Shown here: in pieces, positions 2,429-10,067 of the stretch
Numbering within the stretch: position 1 is the stretch's first letter
Layout of the letters: every line of letters begins with the position of its first letter
From: Paracoccaceae bacterium
Lineage (GTDB): Bacteria; Pseudomonadota; Alphaproteobacteria; Rhodobacterales; Rhodobacteraceae
Assembly (NCBI GenBank): GCA_002400675.1
Contig: NVQY01000155.1
Location: forward strand, 1 to 14,790
DNA: 14,790 nt
Reading direction: 5' to 3'
Position numbers and translations under genes: made by a program
The notes under the pieces: model-generated
Told to the model about the DNA's origin: nothing
Database searches by the model: none
The model's input: the letters and a program-made list of their open reading frames with translations, nothing else

Positions 2429-3649
2429 TCAAATGTCGATTTCGTACTGCGTGTTGTCTCCTGGGTTGGCGGCCAGATCGCACACCGATTGGGTGTCAAT
2501 CGGCTGGCGCTGGGGCAAGGTTTCGATCACCTTCATGCCCTGATTTTCGAACTCCATCAGATGCACATCCAGCACCGCGTGGTGGGTCTTGGGATCAACG
2601 GTCACTTTGCCCGCCGGTCCGTCAATCGACAGACCGGATTCAAGGGCGGTGATAATCGCCTCGCGGTCAAGCGATCCGGCCTGGGCCACGGCCTTGGCCC
2701 AGGTCATCACGCCCTGATAGTTGGACACGGCAAGTTCGTGGATCGCTTTGCTGTCGCCATAGGCCGCCGCCCAAGCCGCCTTGAAGGCCGCGTTGGCCGG
2801 TGTGTCCAGTTCCTGCGAATAGTTGTAGGCGACCATGATGCCGTTGCCTTCGGCGGCGGTCAGCACCTTGTGTTCGTTGCCAACGCCAAGCGTGGTCGAG
2901 GCCAGCGGGATGCGGTCCTTCATGCCGGCCGCGGCCCATTGGCGGAAGAACGACAGATGCGCGCCCCCCACCAGCGGAGCGATCACCAGATCGGTGCCGG
3001 CGGTCTGGATCTTGGCGATGGTTGACCCGAAATCGCTGACGTCCAGCGGGAAGAAATCGACGCCAACGGTTTCACCGCCATTGTCGGTGACGAATTTCTG
3101 AATCCAGCGCGCGGTGATCTGGCCATAGTTGTAATCGGCGGCCAGAATATAAACCTTCTTGCCGGATTTCCCCATCGCGTAGGGCACCAGCGCCGCGACC
3201 TGCTGGGCCGGGGTGACGCCGTTGATGAAAATGTTGCGATCGCACACGCCGCCCTCATAGAGCACGTTGTAGAAATACAGGGTCTTGGTCTTGCGCATGG
3301 TCTGGCGAATCGCCTCGCGCGAGGCGGACAGGATGCCGCCCTGCACCACATCCACCTTGTCCTGACGGGTCAGTTGCTGGGCGTATTGCGAATAGAGAGC
3401 CATGTCGGACTGGGTGTCATAGGCGATCACTTCGACCTGTTTGCCCAGCAAGCCACCGGCGGCGTTGATCTGGCTGACCGCCAGCCGCATGGCCATGTCC
3501 ATGGGTTTGCCGTAGGCGTCGAAAATGCCCGAGGTATCCAGAACCGACCCCAGTTTGATGGTTTCCCCGGCGAGGGCAAACCCCGGCAGCATCGCCGCCC
3601 CGGTCAATGCTGCGGTGGTGCCCAGAAAGGCGCGTCTGTTCACTGTCAT
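2429..3649 (-). CDS. Tat-exported amide/urea-type ABC transporter substrate-binding protein (UrtA/FmdD/AmiC-like)
   Basis: This is the periplasmic ligand receptor of the importer, 406 residues. The N-terminus carries a twin-arginine signal (NRRAFLG, residues 4-10), a hydrophobic stretch and a likely cleavage after ALA at residue 27. The mature part begins GETIKLGSVLDTSGIFDAYGKPM and has the type I periplasmic-binding fold of the Peripla_BP_5 group. The run YNVLYEGGVCDRNIFINGVTP and the following YILAADYNYGQ resemble UrtA, FmdD and AmiC proteins, which bind urea, short amides or formamide. This is known family behaviour; the exact ligand here is inferred. The start ATG overlaps the flotillin stop in an ATGA and has GGGAG eight bases upstream. 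Tat export suggests folding or cofactor loading before secretion, although Tat signals are frequent on binding proteins in roseobacters. Confidence 0.92.
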   Translation of the reverse strand: MTVNRRAFLGTTAALTGAAMLPGFALAGETIKLGSVLDTSGIFDAYGKPMDMAMRLAVSQINAAGGLLGKQVEVIAYDTQSDMALYSQYAQQLTRQDKVDVVQGGILSASREAIRQTMRKTKTLYFYNVLYEGGVCDRNIFINGVTPAQQVAALVPYAMGKSGKKVYILAADYNYGQITARWIQKFVTDNGGETVGVDFFPLDVSDFGSTIAKIQTAGTDLVIAPLVGGAHLSFFRQWAAAGMKDRIPLASTTLGVGNEHKVLTAAEGNGIMVAYNYSQELDTPANAAFKAAWAAAYGDSKAIHELAVSNYQGVMTWAKAVAQAGSLDREAIITALESGLSIDGPAGKVTVDPKTHHAVLDVHLMEFENQGMKVIETLPQRQPIDTQSVCDLAANPGDNTQYEIDI

Positions 3650-5295
3650 GTCTTTTCTCCCGTTGGTTTCTTGTTGTCTGTGGTTTTTTCCTTGATCCGG
3701 TTGGCGTAATCGGCGGTGCGCCCGGCCAGATTGGCGTCGAAATCAAGACCGATTTCCGCGCCCATCTGTTTCATCGCCGGCAGGCGCACGGCCATGCCAA
3801 GTATCTGATCCATCGCCGCGCCAAAGGCCCCGTCGATGCCGCCCGTGCCGTCACCTGACCCGCCGCCCGATCCGCCGTTGCCGAAGCCGGCGATCTGGTT
3901 AATGCGGATTGAATCGATCTTTTCCACCGGCTTCATCATCTGCGTCATGATCTCTGGCATCCGGTCCAGCTTGCGTTCTTCGAGACGCATACGGATCACC
4001 GCGTCGCTGAGGGTGTTTTCAGCCGAGTTCAGGGCGGCCTGACCTGCGGCCATCGCTTCCATGCGGATCTGTTCGGCCTCGGCCCCGGTGGCGGCGGCGG
4101 TGGCCTCGGCCTTGGCGCGGGCCAGCAGGGTCGAGACCTCGCTTTTGACGCGCGCGTCTTCCAGTTCGGTGTTTTTTTGCTGTTTCAGGCGGGCGGTCTG
4201 GTGTTCGCGTTCGGCGGCGGCCTGTTCTTTCTGGGCCTGCACTTGTTCGCCGGCCACCAGAACCTGCGCGCGGGCGTTTTCCTCGGTGGCTTTGGCGGTG
4301 GCCTCTTCGGCGCGGCGCAGGGCCAGTTGAATGTCATTGGTGATGCGCGTTTCCTCTAGCGCCAGAATTGCGGCCATCTCGGCCCGGCGCAGGGTTTCGT
4401 CACTGGCGACCTGCGCGGATTTGGCCAGTTGGTCGTTTTCGATCCGGCTGGTTTCACTTGCCAGATGGGCCTCGGCCCGGGCCTGTTCTTCGCGCGATTT
4501 GGCGTCTGCCTCTAGCTTGGCCAGATGTTCCTGATTGGCGATCTCTGCGGCGCGTTCGGTCTGTTGCAGTTCAATCTGGCGCGTGTGCTGGGCCAGCCGA
4601 CTTTCGCGTACCGAGATTTCGGCCTCGGTTTCGATCTGAACCCGGGCCTTGCGCTGTTCGGCCACAAGTTCGGCCAGTCGTCGCATGCCGCGCGCGTTGA
4701 AGGTGTTGTTTTCGTTCATCTGGCTCAGGTCGCTTTGATCGACCGACACCAGCGAGGCCGACACCAGCGTCAGCCCGAGTTTGGCCGCCTGCGCCTCTAC
4801 CGCGCCGGCCACATCGGCGGTGAATCCGGCCCGGTCCAGATGGATTTCGTCCAGCGTTCGGGTTGCCGCCGCATTCTGGATCGCGTCAATCAGTGAGCCG
4901 GACAGGACCTCCTGCATGGCGTCGCCGCTGCGGGAAATCCGGTGGCCCAAGGCCTGCGCGGCGGTCGAGATTCCGTCATCGGTCGGGGCCACGCGCAGTT
5001 CGAATTCGAATTCCACATCGGCACGCATCTGGTCGCGGGTCAGCAGGGCATCGCGGCCCTTTCGGGCGGCCAGAAACGACTGAGAAACCATCGAGACCTT
5101 TTGCACCTGATGCAGGATCGGCAGGGCCAGACAGCCGCCATCAACCACCACAACCGCGCCGCCAAACCCGGTGCGCACCAACGCCGTGTCCAGCGTCGCC
5201 TTGGCAAAAAACCGTTGCAGGAACCAGATTGCCAACAACAAAACCAGCGCCAGAACAACAATCGAAACTATCCAGACCAAGGCGAAAACCCCCAT
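3646..5295 (-). CDS. Flotillin-like SPFH-domain membrane scaffold protein (YqiK/FloT type)
   Basis: From the ATG at 5295 the protein has 549 residues. It has an N-terminal membrane helix (residues about 3-25, VFALVWIVSIVVLALVLLL), then an SPFH domain (about 30-195) and a long Ala/Glu/Arg-rich coiled coil (about 205-445). After these come the typical flotillin segment EKIDSIRINQIAGFG, a Gly/Ser linker (GGSGGGSGDGTGG) and a short C-terminal domain. Flotillins oligomerise at the inner membrane and organise membrane microdomains and protein complexes. An upstream in-frame TTG at 5376 would add 27 residues, but it lies inside the operator-like palindrome and has no ribosome-binding site. The ATG at 5295 has AGGGG eight bases upstream. 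No NfeD partner is adjacent. Instead it overlaps the transporter binding-protein gene (ATGA), so it is very probably made together with the transporter. Confidence 0.9.
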   Translation of the reverse strand: MGVFALVWIVSIVVLALVLLLAIWFLQRFFAKATLDTALVRTGFGGAVVVVDGGCLALPILHQVQKVSMVSQSFLAARKGRDALLTRDQMRADVEFEFELRVAPTDDGISTAAQALGHRISRSGDAMQEVLSGSLIDAIQNAAATRTLDEIHLDRAGFTADVAGAVEAQAAKLGLTLVSASLVSVDQSDLSQMNENNTFNARGMRRLAELVAEQRKARVQIETEAEISVRESRLAQHTRQIELQQTERAAEIANQEHLAKLEADAKSREEQARAEAHLASETSRIENDQLAKSAQVASDETLRRAEMAAILALEETRITNDIQLALRRAEEATAKATEENARAQVLVAGEQVQAQKEQAAAEREHQTARLKQQKNTELEDARVKSEVSTLLARAKAEATAAATGAEAEQIRMEAMAAGQAALNSAENTLSDAVIRMRLEERKLDRMPEIMTQMMKPVEKIDSIRINQIAGFGNGGSGGGSGDGTGGIDGAFGAAMDQILGMAVRLPAMKQMGAEIGLDFDANLAGRTADYANRIKEKTTDNKKPTGEKT

Positions 5296-5357
5296 TATCG
5301 CGACCCCTGTCTGCCGTCGGGATTCCGAAGGCTGCGCAGGTGTGGCAACGGTGGTGG

Positions 5358-5404
5358 GTTTTAGTTTCCAATTCAAGTAAAATATTTGATTTGGAAACTA
5401 AAAC
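5358..5404. promoter_or_regulatory. 47-bp palindrome: paired inverted copies of the MarR-type operator
   Basis: The arms GTTTTAGTTTCCAA (5358-5371) and TTGGAAACTAAAAC (5391-5404) are perfect reverse complements over 14 bp. Pairing continues partly inward around a centre at 5381. Each half also resembles the site in the marR divergent gap. Positions 5359-5381 match 6593-6615 at 20 of 23 bases, and the opposite-strand copy (5403 to 5381) matches at 19 of 23. The two copies are 26 bp apart, centre to centre. The element lies between the stop of the amiC-like gene and the flotillin ATG at 5295. The reading as an operator is inferred from motif sharing. It is not followed by a U-run on either strand. 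Confidence 0.7.
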
Positions 5405-5419
5405 TTATAATGCGTTGAT

Positions 5420-6541
5420 TTATAAGGTTTTAATCACTTCAAACTTGTGCCCATCGGCGCGAGCAAGGTAGATTGGCGCGCGATGCTCTGGGCCTTTGGC
5501 GAGATTTTTGCGCCCGCTTCGGTAGAGGACCGGCAGGCAATCATAGCCGCTTTTGTCGCGCCACTGATCGGTGTAGCCATGCAACAGCCCGGCTAGAAAA
5601 TGCACCCCTTCATAGGTTGACTGGCCAATCGCATTCAGCACCGGGGCCTGATCGCCGTGCAGGGCGTAATAACGTTCCTTGAAGGCACAATTCGCGTCCG
5701 TTGCAAGGTTGCCGAAATAGGACGAGGCGGCAAACAACCGTTTGAGGCTGGAGGCCCCGCACGCCAGCAGGCCATTTTCTTCAAGCGCGCAGGAAAGCCG
5801 CACCACGCGCCGGTCCAGCCCGGCCTTGCCAAACGCCCGGTTGAACGCGATGGCATCCTGCCCGACCAGCGACAACAACAACGCTTCGGCCCCCGAGGCG
5901 TCGATCTCTTCCACCAGCCGGTCCATGTCCTTTAGCCCGAAGGGGACGTATTTTTCATAGGCCAGATGCACCGACATGCGCGACAGTTTCGATTTGGCAT
6001 AGGAATGAGAGGTGCGCGGCCAGACGTAATCATTGCCGATCAGCGCCCAGCTTTTGGGGCGGTAGCGGGTCTGCAAAAGCTCCATCGATGGGCCAAGCTG
6101 TTCCTGCGGCATCTCGCCGATGGCATAAAGCCCGGCGGTCTTTTCACCACCTTCATAGAGCGGCGTGTAGATGTAGGGCACGCGCTGGTGAACGACCTTG
6201 CTCAGGCGTTGGCGGACGGCGCTGATATGCATGCCGACAATCGCGTCAATCGACCCTGAATCGATCAGATCGTTGACCACTTCTTCGATGGGGACGGTGG
6301 CCTCAAGGGCGGCGTCGATCATGATCAGCTGCACCTTGCGCCCGCTTATCCCGTTGGCTTTGTTGAGTTCCTCAATCGCCACCTGCGCGCTGGAAATGCA
6401 CGAGGGTGCCCAGATTCCGGCCGAGCCGCACATGGGGATCAGCAGGGCAATACGATACGCGTCCCGCGACCGGGCCATCGGCCCGTCCCGCAAGTCACCC
6501 AATTCCGAGAGCAGCAGACTATCCGCCCCAAGCATCGTCAT
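5420..6541 (-). CDS. AmiC-like cytosolic periplasmic-binding-fold protein, putative amide sensor
   Basis: The product has 373 residues, close to the length of Pseudomonas AmiC, and begins with about 28 polar residues that contain no signal peptide. The binding domain then starts YRIALLIPMCGSAGIWAPSC. Motifs shared with the AmiC/UrtA/FmdD group include AIEELNKANGISGRKV, YTPLYEGGEKTAGLYAIGE, WALIGNDYVWPRTSHSYAK and a C-terminal YEGVHFLAGLL. In Pseudomonas, cytosolic AmiC senses amides and restrains the antiterminator AmiR. Here no AmiR is visible, but a divergent MarR regulator is. The start ATG at 6541 has AAGGA nine bases upstream. I infer a ligand-sensing or regulatory role. A transporter component with non-classical export cannot be excluded. 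Confidence 0.85.
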   Translation of the reverse strand: MTMLGADSLLLSELGDLRDGPMARSRDAYRIALLIPMCGSAGIWAPSCISSAQVAIEELNKANGISGRKVQLIMIDAALEATVPIEEVVNDLIDSGSIDAIVGMHISAVRQRLSKVVHQRVPYIYTPLYEGGEKTAGLYAIGEMPQEQLGPSMELLQTRYRPKSWALIGNDYVWPRTSHSYAKSKLSRMSVHLAYEKYVPFGLKDMDRLVEEIDASGAEALLLSLVGQDAIAFNRAFGKAGLDRRVVRLSCALEENGLLACGASSLKRLFAASSYFGNLATDANCAFKERYYALHGDQAPVLNAIGQSTYEGVHFLAGLLHGYTDQWRDKSGYDCLPVLYRSGRKNLAKGPEHRAPIYLARADGHKFEVIKTL

Positions 6542-6585
6542 ATCACCGCTTCCTTTCCGGTTTGTTTAAGGAGGCAGGCACATAG

Positions 6586-6618
6586 CAATTGATTTTACTT
6601 TCCAAGTCAAATAAATTG
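6586..6618. promoter_or_regulatory. Palindromic operator and divergent promoter region between amiC-like and marR
   Basis: A 33-bp dyad centred on 6602 reads CAATTnATTTnACTT, a three-base centre, then its mirror AAGTnAAATnAATTG. Long interrupted palindromes of this kind are typical for MarR-family dimers. A rightward promoter can be drawn inside it (TTGATT at 6589-6594, 17-bp spacer, TAAATT at 6612-6617). A weaker leftward one also fits (TTGACT on the minus strand with TGCTAT 17 bp later). Binding would therefore block both. The promoter hexamers are only partial matches; the palindrome itself is directly visible. Confidence 0.7.
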
Positions 6619-6623
6619 TGCCC

Positions 6624-6647
6624 ATGACACAAGTGGTGACAGCATGA
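6624..6647 (+). other. Possible 7-codon leader ORF overlapping the marR start
   Basis: An ATG at 6624 opens a seven-codon frame (MTQVVTA) whose TGA overlaps the marR ATG in an ATGA. No good ribosome-binding site precedes either start. The predicted transcription start of the rightward promoter would fall at about 6624, so the leader could be translated as a leaderless message and pass ribosomes on to marR. This may equally be chance. Confidence 0.3.
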
Positions 6648-7066
6648 ATGAACGCGCAAATCCGATCGGAAACTATGTCTCCTATGCGCTGGCGGCGGCC
6701 AACAGGGCGGTGAACCTGTCGCTGGCCGCGCGTCTGAAACAGCATGGCGTTCAGATCGAAGCCTGGCGGATCATGGAGACCCTGGACGGGGATCAGCGCC
6801 TGACCATGGGCGAACTGGCCGAGATTGTCCTGATCAATCCGCCGACCCTGAGCAAACTGGTTGACCGGATGGTATCCGACGGGTTTGTCCACCGCCATGT
6901 GGCGCAGAATGATCATCGTCAGGTGAACCTTTTGATCACCGCATTGGGGCAAAAGCGGATGATCCAGATCCGTCAGGAGATTCAGGATCAGGACGAACAG
7001 ATTTTCCAGAAACTTGGAAAAGAGCAAACCGAACTGTTGATTGGGATACTTCGCGGGTTGGCGTGA
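6644..7066 (+). CDS. MarR-family transcriptional regulator
   Basis: This is a 140-residue winged-helix dimer protein. The helix-turn-helix lies at about 46-82 (LTMGELAEIVLINPPTLSKLVDRMVSDG), the wing follows with the family-typical NDHRQVNLLIT (89-99), and a long C-terminal dimerisation helix closes the protein. MarR proteins normally repress their own and adjacent divergent genes and release DNA on binding a small ligand. The strong palindrome at 6586-6618 and the related pair at 5358-5404 suggest that this regulator acts on itself, the amiC-like gene and the flotillin-transporter genes. The ATG at 6644 lacks a good Shine-Dalgarno sequence (only GTGGTG nearby). No ligand can be inferred beyond the amide/urea flavour of the neighbours. 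Confidence 0.92.
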   Translation: MNERANPIGNYVSYALAAANRAVNLSLAARLKQHGVQIEAWRIMETLDGDQRLTMGELAEIVLINPPTLSKLVDRMVSDGFVHRHVAQNDHRQVNLLITALGQKRMIQIRQEIQDQDEQIFQKLGKEQTELLIGILRGLA

Positions 7067-7525
7067 GAGTATTTCAGCCTTGTTCAGCGAGCGATTTTCC
7101 TAGGCGACCGGAGACTCAGCATAGCTTTTTCCGCGATGGCTTCTTAAAAGGCACTGGTAGAAAGCTGAACAATCAGCAGTGGGCGGCATTGCACCCATTT
7201 GCTGACCCCCCCACCCAATGGTTCCTCCCAGGCCGCAAACGTATACGGGGGGGTAGGTGCGGCGTTTCGCTAGCGAGAGTGGATTTTGTGGGGGAATCCA
7301 CTTGGAAGCTAGGTAAAACAGTCAGGTATTTATTAGTTCAATAAAACAAATGGTTGCGAGGCGAGTTGCGCCTCTAGAGGTGGACTCTTGATAAAATTAG
7401 TCAAGAATACACCCCTGCCAACACCAGCCACGAGGAAGCCAGGCCAAAGACCATGCAGATCACACCGATATTTCCTGTTGACAGGTCTGCCCCTCTTGAC
7501 TCATCCCTTGATAATCGAAGTAGAG

Positions 7526-7555
7526 CGCCCGGAGGAAACCCCTCACGGGCGTTTT
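7526..7555 (+). terminator. Intrinsic terminator-like hairpin
   Basis: The stem CGCCCG/CGGGCG is extended by GAGG/CCTC with one bulged A and a five-base loop (AAACC). It is followed by TTTTGCTTTT. It points rightward and has no identifiable gene in front of it, so it may close an unrecognised transcript or be left over from a removed gene. Confidence 0.5.
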
Positions 7556-7591
7556 GCTTTTCCCGTTTCCGACAATTCAGATCAGACCCAG

Positions 7592-7624
7592 CCGCGCCGG
7601 TAATCCCGGGCGTGGCGTTTTGAC
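7592..7624 (+). terminator. Second hairpin with T-tail before the parB-like fragment
   Basis: CCGCGCC pairs with GGCGTGG (one G-T pair) around a partly self-complementary loop. The hairpin is followed by a short T-run. It is only about 65 bp behind the previous hairpin and about 30 bp before the ATG of the truncated ParB-domain gene, so attenuation is possible. A T-run of four is short for a strong terminator. Confidence 0.3.
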
Positions 7625-7654
7625 GTCTGCATCCCCCACACATCGAGGACCTTC

Positions 7655-7868
7655 ATGGATTTGGTATTCGCGCCAAGCGAGATCAAGGCCTGGCCGATCG
7701 AAAAACTGCGCCCCTACGCCCGCAATGCCAAGATGCACGGCGACGATCAGGTGGCCAAGATCGTGGCCAGCATGGCAAAGTTCGGCTGGACGGTGCCGTG
7801 CATGGTGGCGGACGATGGCGAGCTGATTGCGGAACATGGCCGGGTGCTGGCGGCAACGATGCTGGGTT
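7655..7868 (+). pseudogene. Truncated ParB/Srx N-terminal-domain protein (phage type)
   Basis: The first 71 codons encode a clear ParB-like nuclease domain start: MDLVFAPSEIKAWPIEKL, RPYARNAKMHGDDQVAKI, then FGWTVPCMVADDGELIAEHGRVLAA. In Rhodobacteraceae prophages this domain opens proteins of several hundred residues, often fused to or followed by a DNA methyltransferase near the terminase genes (known context). Here the similarity stops at about 7868, where the sequence switches to an unrelated aminotransferase fragment in the opposite orientation. The frame continues to a stop at 8011 with meaningless sequence. The usual GHGR motif reads EHGR, a further sign of decay. AGGA lies some 9 bases before the ATG. 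Confidence 0.75.
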
Positions 7869-8482
7869 CGAATATCAGACAAGAGATGCCAGACCAATCA
7901 ACCCCCATCTCGCCGGGTTTCAACACCTCGACGAACGACGCAAGCACTTGTCGGACCGGCGTTTCATGCAGCGCCATGGTGGCACTAAGCGCATCAAGGC
8001 CAAGACCGTGAAAGCTACCCTCAATGGCAAGAATTTTTCCCGGACGGTTGCGCTGGGCAAGCGACAGCGCCGTACTGACGGCGAAACTGCCCCCCACCTG
8101 AAACAGCACCCTAAAATCGCTGAGACCAAGAGTGTTGATCAGCCAGCGTGCAAACCTCTCTGCTTCGGGTGGATATATTCCGGCCACCAGATCGCAACAC
8201 CTAATCCTTCGTTGAATGGCAAGGTCGCAAAGTTTCTGAAAGTAACACCGACCTACCCGATAACGCGGGGATTGGCTATCCCCGGGCCGCACCCGCAGCC
8301 TCAAATATGCAATGATGGGAGTCGGTCCAGCCCATGGCAGCCCGTTTCACCAGCCGAGTGTATCTTGCATAACCGCTCAATTGGAGGATTCGAGAGATGC
8401 CACCAATAATATCATCAGCATATTGCCCCGAGCGCCCGGGTACATACTGAAGCGCCCACCAACAGTCTCGGGGTGACCCCAC
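7866..8482 (-). pseudogene. Frameshifted remnant of a class III PLP-dependent aminotransferase
   Basis: The minus strand encodes YPPEAERFARWLINTLGL, FRVLFQVGGSFAVSTALSLA, RNRPGKILAIEGSFHGLGLDAL and finally DWSGISCLIFEP. These are the substrate/cofactor-domain motifs of class III aminotransferases (the glutamate-1-semialdehyde aminotransferase relatives). The catalytic lysine region and everything after the EP motif is missing, because the gene is cut at about 7868 by the ParB-like fragment. Upstream, the reading continues in another frame (8290-8482, ending CIFEAAGAARG), so at least one frameshift is present. A third frame before 8483 shows protein-like sequence (FLLDAEAVLAQIKSLVYVVPWFGH). 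It is a dead fragment whose original pathway cannot be told. Confidence 0.65.
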
Positions 8483-8603
8483 CGCTGAAACTCAATTCAA
8501 GCGACAGATGCCCGAACCACGGTACAACGTAAACAAGAGACTTGATTTGGGCCAATACAGCCTCAGCATCCAGCAGAAGGCATTCTACTTGGGGAATGTC
8601 GGC

Positions 8604-10067
<1,464 letters not shown>

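Follow-up and report, generated by a model that had tools for sequence, protein, structure and literature searches.

A conserved 22-bp motif as the candidate switch of a MarR-type regulator and its neighbouring flotillin-transporter operon

Introduction

Why should a regulator gene and a flotillin gene be preceded by nearly the same sequence, once as a single copy and once as a 47-bp palindrome? The question is raised by a stretch of 14,790 nt (hereafter, the window) from contig NVQY01000155.1 of a Paracoccaceae bacterium (assembly GCA_002400675.1), whose genome assembly is fragmentary, with 2.88 Mb and 67.6% completeness. An initial annotation, made from the sequence of the window, had proposed that a MarR-type regulator governs two promoters, with a tandem site at the flotillin operon. 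We followed the motif through related genomes, and our comparison of sequences indicates that the regulator very probably uses it to control both itself and the neighbouring transporter-flotillin operon. Our search of the literature (open-licence papers) found no description of this operon or of its operator.

Results

The regulator and the operon it faces

The gene of the regulator (6644-7066, plus strand) encodes a protein of 140 amino acids without cysteine, which matches Pfam MarR_2 (5e-10) and passes the cut-offs of the MarR families (39.8 bits vs 27 for PF12802; 37 vs 24.6 for PF01047). Divergent from it, the minus strand carries, in order from the marR gap, an AmiC/UrtA-like Peripla_BP_6 protein (5420-6541; 373 aa; Pfam 4.3e-55; PDB AmiC 1pea, 8.8e-14), a flotillin (3646-5295; Pfam Flot 8.8e-30, Band_7 8e-15), a second binding protein of the amide/urea (HAAT) type (2429-3649; Peripla_BP_6 7.3e-80), a LivH/UrtB-type permease (1461-2351; BPD_transp_2 1.7e-31), a LivM/UrtC-type permease (424-1464; BPD_transp_2 1.8e-27) and a LivG/UrtD-type ATPase (3-563; ABC_tran 3.7e-18), whose gene is cut by the contig end. 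The equivalog cut-offs of UrtA, UrtB and UrtC were missed, by the binding protein (346.5 vs 494.8) and by the permeases (241.5 vs 374.25 and 226.5 vs 575.55). Read by eye, the N-terminus of the second binding protein is signal-like, whereas the AmiC-like protein has no evident signal peptide and is probably cytoplasmic. No ANTAR (AmiR-type) partner was found among the ten window proteins scanned with Pfam.

The flotillin likely starts at the ATG at 5293-5295; of 28 relatives, 22 align to the long flotillin ORF from residue 26 or beyond, and 6 from an earlier residue. An alternative TTG start at 5376 falls inside the operator described below. On the other side of marR, a 1.5-kb stretch separates it from mreB (7066-8604); two ORFs scanned within it, at 7655-8011 and 7798-8409, have no Pfam match, and the stretch may be decayed DNA.

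In relatives the operon runs further than the contig allows us to see here. Genes for LivF, an amidase and an acyl-CoA ligase lie downstream in all eight relatives examined, a count that includes the query, L072. LivF and the amidase share a single open frame in four of five loci (L068, L069, L070 and L072), and in the fifth, L066, the situation is obscured by an overlapping frame; for L072 the fusion was confirmed by Pfam. There (L072:2143-4506), as in L068-L070, a LivF-type ABC ATPase is joined to an amidase of about 500 aa (PRK07235-like) and followed by the ligase, an arrangement that would unite energisation of transport and amide hydrolysis in one polypeptide. The matches of the ligase, which include many acyl- and aryl-CoA ligases, do not fix its substrate. 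For the fusion, the own genome had no match at 1e-60, which says little in an assembly of this completeness.

Three copies of one motif in the window

Positions 5359-5381, before the flotillin gene, agree with 6593-6615, in the marR gap, at 20 of 23 bases, and the inverted copy at 5381-5403 agrees with the same segment at 19 of 23. The two copies before flotillin make up a 47-bp palindrome (5358-5404) in which 40 of 47 positions match themselves, corresponding to 20 of 23 arm pairs; the site in the marR gap is a 33-bp imperfect dyad (6586-6618; 13 of 16 arm pairs). The agreements at 20 and 19 of 23 bases, the 47-bp palindrome and the 33-bp dyad had been reported in the initial annotation and were reproduced when recomputed. 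In 2000 simulated gap pairs (first-order Markov) the best 23-mer agreement was 18, and 19 when the AT-rich stretches alone were simulated; neither simulation reached 20 in any of the 2000. Across the own genome, the 23-bp pattern at up to 3 mismatches matched at these three places only, and a reversed control pattern nowhere.

We describe the motif as a 22-bp dyad, TTTAnTT-N8-AAnTAAA, and name its copies as putative operators. O1 (6594-6615, plus strand, 0 mismatches) is the single copy between the divergent marR and amiC-like genes. O2a (5360-5381, plus strand, 0 mismatches) is the flotillin-proximal copy of the double site, and O2b (5381-5402, minus strand, 2 mismatches) is inverted with respect to it, with its centre 21 bp away. 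The 26 bp first given for the distance between the facing sites holds for the dyad centre used then, and becomes 21 bp with the centre that we prefer (see below). The palindrome lies 15 bases from the amiC-like stop codon and 62 bases from the likely flotillin ATG. Just downstream of the double operator, the minus strand has a short C-rich run (CCACCAC, window 5340-5357); several relatives have CCCTCAC or CTCCCAC at the same place.

Conservation of O1 between two divergent genes

Relatives of the MarR protein at E <= 1e-22 were found in 24 of 394 genomes of the family and 4 of 385 genomes of the class, both counts including the own genome, and the contigs of named genomes contributed 10 loci. 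The pooled set had 35 loci (the window, L030-L038, L040-L044 and L046-L065), 33 of them with a divergent AmiC-like gene; left out were L058, without an AmiC-like gene, and L059, with one on the same strand.

The core TTTCCAnnTCAAnTAA was present at up to 2 mismatches in the marR/amiC gap of 31 of the 33 loci, always in the same orientation; the exceptions were L061 and L065, with no motif in their marR gap. For 30 of the 31 loci none of 100 shuffled gaps equalled the real match, and for L062 8 of 100 reached its level. After removal of five near-identical loci (L036, L037, L046, L055 and L064) the motif was found in 26 of 28 gaps. In these 26 loci the mean information was 1.38 bits for the 22 operator columns, where the core columns are inflated because each locus was aligned at its best-matching core, 1.09 for the directly adjoining columns and 0.19 for the rest of the gap. 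Conservation across orthologous clusters had been proposed beforehand as the check for a shared operator, and it is borne out here as well as before flotillin, where each of 24 amiC/flotillin gaps has at least one copy.

The gaps of L033, L036, L038 and L064 are very similar by eye. Their MAG labels are Gammaproteobacteria for L033, Chloroflexi for L036 and Alphaproteobacteria for L038, and L064 is from a genome of the window's class, which suggests mis-binning or recent transfer.

Conserved bases around O1 point to two promoters. For the column counts L038 was also removed, leaving 25 loci. TTGA at -10 to -7, outside the core, is kept in 24 of the 25, and the first T of the second box of the marR promoter in all 25. 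GTCAA, which belongs to the amiC-like -35 box when read on the opposite strand, is invariant (25 of 25) and its preceding A is kept in 22; a partly conserved block at -17 to -12 lies on the side of the amiC-like promoter. The putative marR promoter (6589-6617, plus strand) would consist of TTGATT (6589-6594) and TAAATT (6612-6617), with O1 filling the 17-bp spacer. The putative amiC-like promoter (6582-6610, minus strand) would have TTGACT (6610-6605) as a -35 box inside O1 and TGCTAT (6587-6582) after a 17-bp spacer. A consensus promoter scan gave no sigma-70-like match in 5280-6700, so that the call of the marR promoter rests on conservation. From the conserved TTGA and GTCAA, O1 thus seems to be wedged into two overlapping divergent promoters.

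A double site with constant spacing before flotillin

We had 24 usable amiC/flotillin gaps; L032 was left out because of a contig end, and L061, L062 and L065 because the stretch examined had no flotillin match. Two copies of the motif were present in 22 of them, inverted in 18 and direct in 4, and a single copy in L033 and L038. As the second site we accepted the best remaining match with no more than 5 mismatches, provided that it lay 12 bp or more from the first, with no other regard to spacing; one or both copies were poor (3-4 mismatches) in L031, L043, L044, L049, L050 and L063. Measured between the preferred dyad centres, the two sites are 21 bp apart in 14 loci and 20 bp apart in 8, inverted and direct pairs alike.

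This centre lies 5.5 bases from the initial T of TTTCCA and was at first chosen to equalise the spacings of inverted and direct pairs. A symmetry scan also ranked it first, with small margins: 0.527 for the marR-gap sites, vs 0.492 for the earlier centre at 3.0, and 0.449 for the flotillin-gap sites, vs 0.435 at 9.0 and 0.411 at 3.0. With the centre at 3.0, direct pairs are still 20-21 bp apart and inverted pairs 25-26, and within each arrangement the spacing is nearly constant whatever the centre. Two more direct pairs came from outside this set, 20 bp apart in L077 (one copy weak, with 4 mismatches) and 21 bp in L099 (both weak, with 4 and 6).

A palindrome of this length could also act as RNA, as a terminator, an attenuator or an mRNA-stability stem, its likeness to the marR gap being then secondary. 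The window sequence does fold into a long stem, with -23.1 kcal/mol for 80 nt (-25.6 in L040), and it lies 15 bases past the amiC-like stop codon. The four direct-repeat loci, however, fold differently and more weakly (-4.1 to -11.9 kcal/mol), although some inverted loci are equally weak (-9.4 to -10.7), and two loci have a single copy. Nor do the arms covary: their variable positions agree in 119 of 234 cells, compared with a mean of 124.5 after shuffling. Given that direct-repeat loci lack the stem and that the arms lack covariation, we consider a hairpin function highly unlikely; it would also leave the copy in the marR gap unexplained. The segment 5358-5404 is not followed by a T-run and is not reported by the terminator scan, and an intrinsic terminator, with a G+C-containing stem and then a T-run, was discarded as a candidate there.

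The 47-bp palindrome is thus best read as two operators that lie two helical turns apart in either relative orientation. The simplest reading of the spacing is that two MarR dimers would occupy adjacent positions on the same DNA face, the palindrome as such being incidental. The promoter of the operon is less clear. By eye, TTAAAA-17-TTATAA (5405-5433, minus strand) is a tentative flotillin promoter that would place the start in O2b, and a search of the aligned relatives for a conserved flotillin promoter gave no good candidate; the conserved columns upstream of O2 lend it no support, as they are mostly the coding end and stop codon of the amiC-like gene.

The site is confined to the cluster and follows the MarR/AmiC-like pair

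Specificity was assessed in 22 genomes from the 27 that have a MarR match at 1e-22 (all except G224, G303, G314, G342 and G750). At up to 2 mismatches the 22-bp motif had 40 matches in these cluster-bearing genomes, all within the cluster; such matches occur in 21 of the 22, and G467 has a 3-mismatch match only. At 3 mismatches background shows up in the 22 genomes, as it does with the reversed-pattern control.

Flotillin genes served as the counterpart. Relatives of the flotillin were found in 54 of 394 family genomes at E <= 1e-90, and 35 of these matches were weaker (1e-109 to 1e-90). Nine of the weaker ones were examined as loci L101-L109; another two, from G314 and G224, correspond to L075 and L077. 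In L101-L109 there was no adjacent MarR or AmiC-like gene in the stretch examined, the best motif matches had 6-8 mismatches, and none of the genomes concerned belongs to the 24 of 394 that have a MarR match at 1e-22. These nine constitute a second class of loci with a flotillin and a HAAT binding protein, with 37-41% flotillin identity. G108, the second genome of this genus in our sample, matched neither MarR at 1e-22 nor flotillin at 1e-90.

Distant clusters that do have the MarR/AmiC-like pair also have the site. Four loci (L061, L062, L065 and L059) were reread on longer stretches as L076, L077, L078 and L075, respectively. The site precedes flotillin in L075 (2 mismatches) and L077 (1 mismatch), and the amidase in L076 (1 mismatch); in L078 it lies between the AmiC-like gene and the amidase and is weaker, with 5 mismatches in the 22-mer and 2 in the 16-mer core. 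Present in distant clusters with the pair and missing from the nine loci without it, the site therefore seems to stay with the MarR/AmiC-like pair when the operon is rearranged. A MarR homologue with 47% identity (L058/L074) has neither an AmiC-like neighbour nor an upstream motif, and the best matches in 17 low-identity MarR-like loci (L013-L029) have 4-8 mismatches. The surroundings of L011, L012, L014 and L045 were inspected by eye for diverged sites; diverged but similar sequences are found at two of these distant MarR/AmiC-like loci (L012:1281-1302, 4 mismatches; L045:6646-6667, 5 mismatches), and the operator may evolve together with its regulator.

These distributions bear on two further explanations. 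One is that the motif is a promoter element of a special sigma factor rather than an operator. TTGACT, within the motif on the minus strand, does double as the -35 box of the amiC-like gene and is almost invariant. Against this, the distal copy before flotillin occurs in both orientations, no -10-like box is seen by eye at a constant distance from the copies, and confinement to one cluster at up to 2 mismatches is not what a general sigma factor's promoters would show; we consider this explanation very unlikely. The other is that the motif is bound by a regulator encoded elsewhere or by a nucleoid protein, as would suit AT-rich sites whose binding by the local MarR is deduced. Such a protein appears very unlikely, as no site with up to 2 mismatches lies outside the cluster in the 22 genomes, and the site follows the MarR/AmiC-like pair across clusters; the nine related flotillin loci that lack the pair also lack the site. 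Association alone cannot single out MarR, given that the presence of the AmiC-like gene is equally tightly linked; we speak of a MarR operator on the strength of that association.

Discussion

Conservation of the motif, its confinement to the cluster and its tracking of the MarR/AmiC-like pair rather than of flotillin alone support a MarR regulon with two promoters, as first proposed. The regulon with a site at the flotillin operon stands, with two refinements: O1 appears to serve two overlapping divergent promoters, and O2 is a pair of operators. We put at roughly 0.82 the probability of the reading as a whole, namely that these are the operators of the adjacent MarR protein, autoregulatory at O1 and double before the flotillin operon at O2, with release by a compound of the pathway.

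The switch could work as follows. A MarR dimer would recognise the 22-bp dyad TTTAnTT-N8-AAnTAAA with its conserved TTTCCA..TCAA core. At O1, one dimer would cover the overlapping marR and amiC-like promoters and shut both, so that its occupancy would amount to autoregulation together with control of the amiC-like gene, the presumed sensor gene. At O2a and O2b, two dimers would lie next to each other on one DNA face, two helical turns apart, and block the operon of flotillin, binding protein, permeases and ATPase, which in relatives runs on into the LivF-amidase fusion and the acyl-CoA ligase. They may do so by preventing initiation at a promoter of the operon itself, or by stopping transcription that reads through from amiC. 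A compound of the pathway would release MarR, most likely a CoA thioester or an amide handled by the operon. A CoA thioester is a good first guess because relatives encode an acyl-CoA ligase in this operon and CouR sets a precedent (see below), and an amide is the second guess because the AmiC-like gene adjoins.

A more tentative idea, which we hold to be rather doubtful, is that the cytoplasmic AmiC-like protein works together with MarR as a single sensor unit, in which the former binds an amide and acts on the latter. In Pseudomonas, AmiC acts through AmiR. An AmiC-like neighbour is found in three of the four next-best MarR homologues (L011, L012 and L014, not L013; 32.8-34.1% identity), and 15 weaker homologues (L015-L029) have no AmiC-like gene at 1e-6 within about 1.5 kb. 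If the idea is true, a periplasmic-binding-protein fold would be the sensor for a MarR repressor of a flotillin-associated operon for amide uptake and activation.

The locus offers a well-defined local regulon for a flotillin-ABC-amidase-CoA-ligase operon, comprising a regulator, a 22-bp operator, divergent promoters and a double site. It also provides a natural experiment, as two operators kept 20-21 bp apart whatever their orientation predict dimers bound side by side. The identity of the inducer would reveal the substrate of the operon and help to explain why flotillin and transporter are co-regulated.

Comparison with known systems

A close parallel is CouR, the p-hydroxycinnamate regulator of Rhodococcus jostii, a MarR-family repressor. 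Its promoters have inverted repeats that overlap their -35 boxes; where two of them diverge, a repeat overlaps both boxes, and p-coumaroyl-CoA abolishes DNA binding (PMC4737184). Our locus shares with it a MarR-type regulator and a repeat over the -35 boxes of divergent promoters, which are here putative. The CouR box is a short repeat, cATTGA-5-TCAATg (PMC4737184), in contrast to the 22-bp dyad described here. Unlike in the CouR system as described there, our locus has a double operator 1.2 kb from O1, before a transporter operon, and the main text of the CouR paper contains neither the word flotillin nor the word transporter (PMC4737184).

The best NCBIfam match of the regulator is HpaR of homoprotocatechuate operons (TIGR02337, residues 17-139), whose cut-off it misses (64.6 bits vs 121.2); unlike those of HpaR, its neighbours are a transporter, a flotillin and, in relatives, an amidase and a CoA ligase. 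The system also recalls AmiC, the Pseudomonas amidase regulator (PDB 1pea), in having a Peripla_BP_6 protein without an evident signal peptide and, in relatives, an operon that encodes an amidase. The AmiC-like protein, however, scores higher with an extracellular ligand-binding receptor (8tg1) and a urea-binding protein (7s6e) than with AmiC, and the regulator that adjoins its gene is of the MarR type, unlike in the AmiC system. Overall, the logic of the circuit is that of known MarR regulators, an ordinary form of bacterial control that is here well conserved and neatly paired; what is less ordinary is that the double operator keeps its spacing in either orientation and that MarR is paired with an AmiC-like protein.
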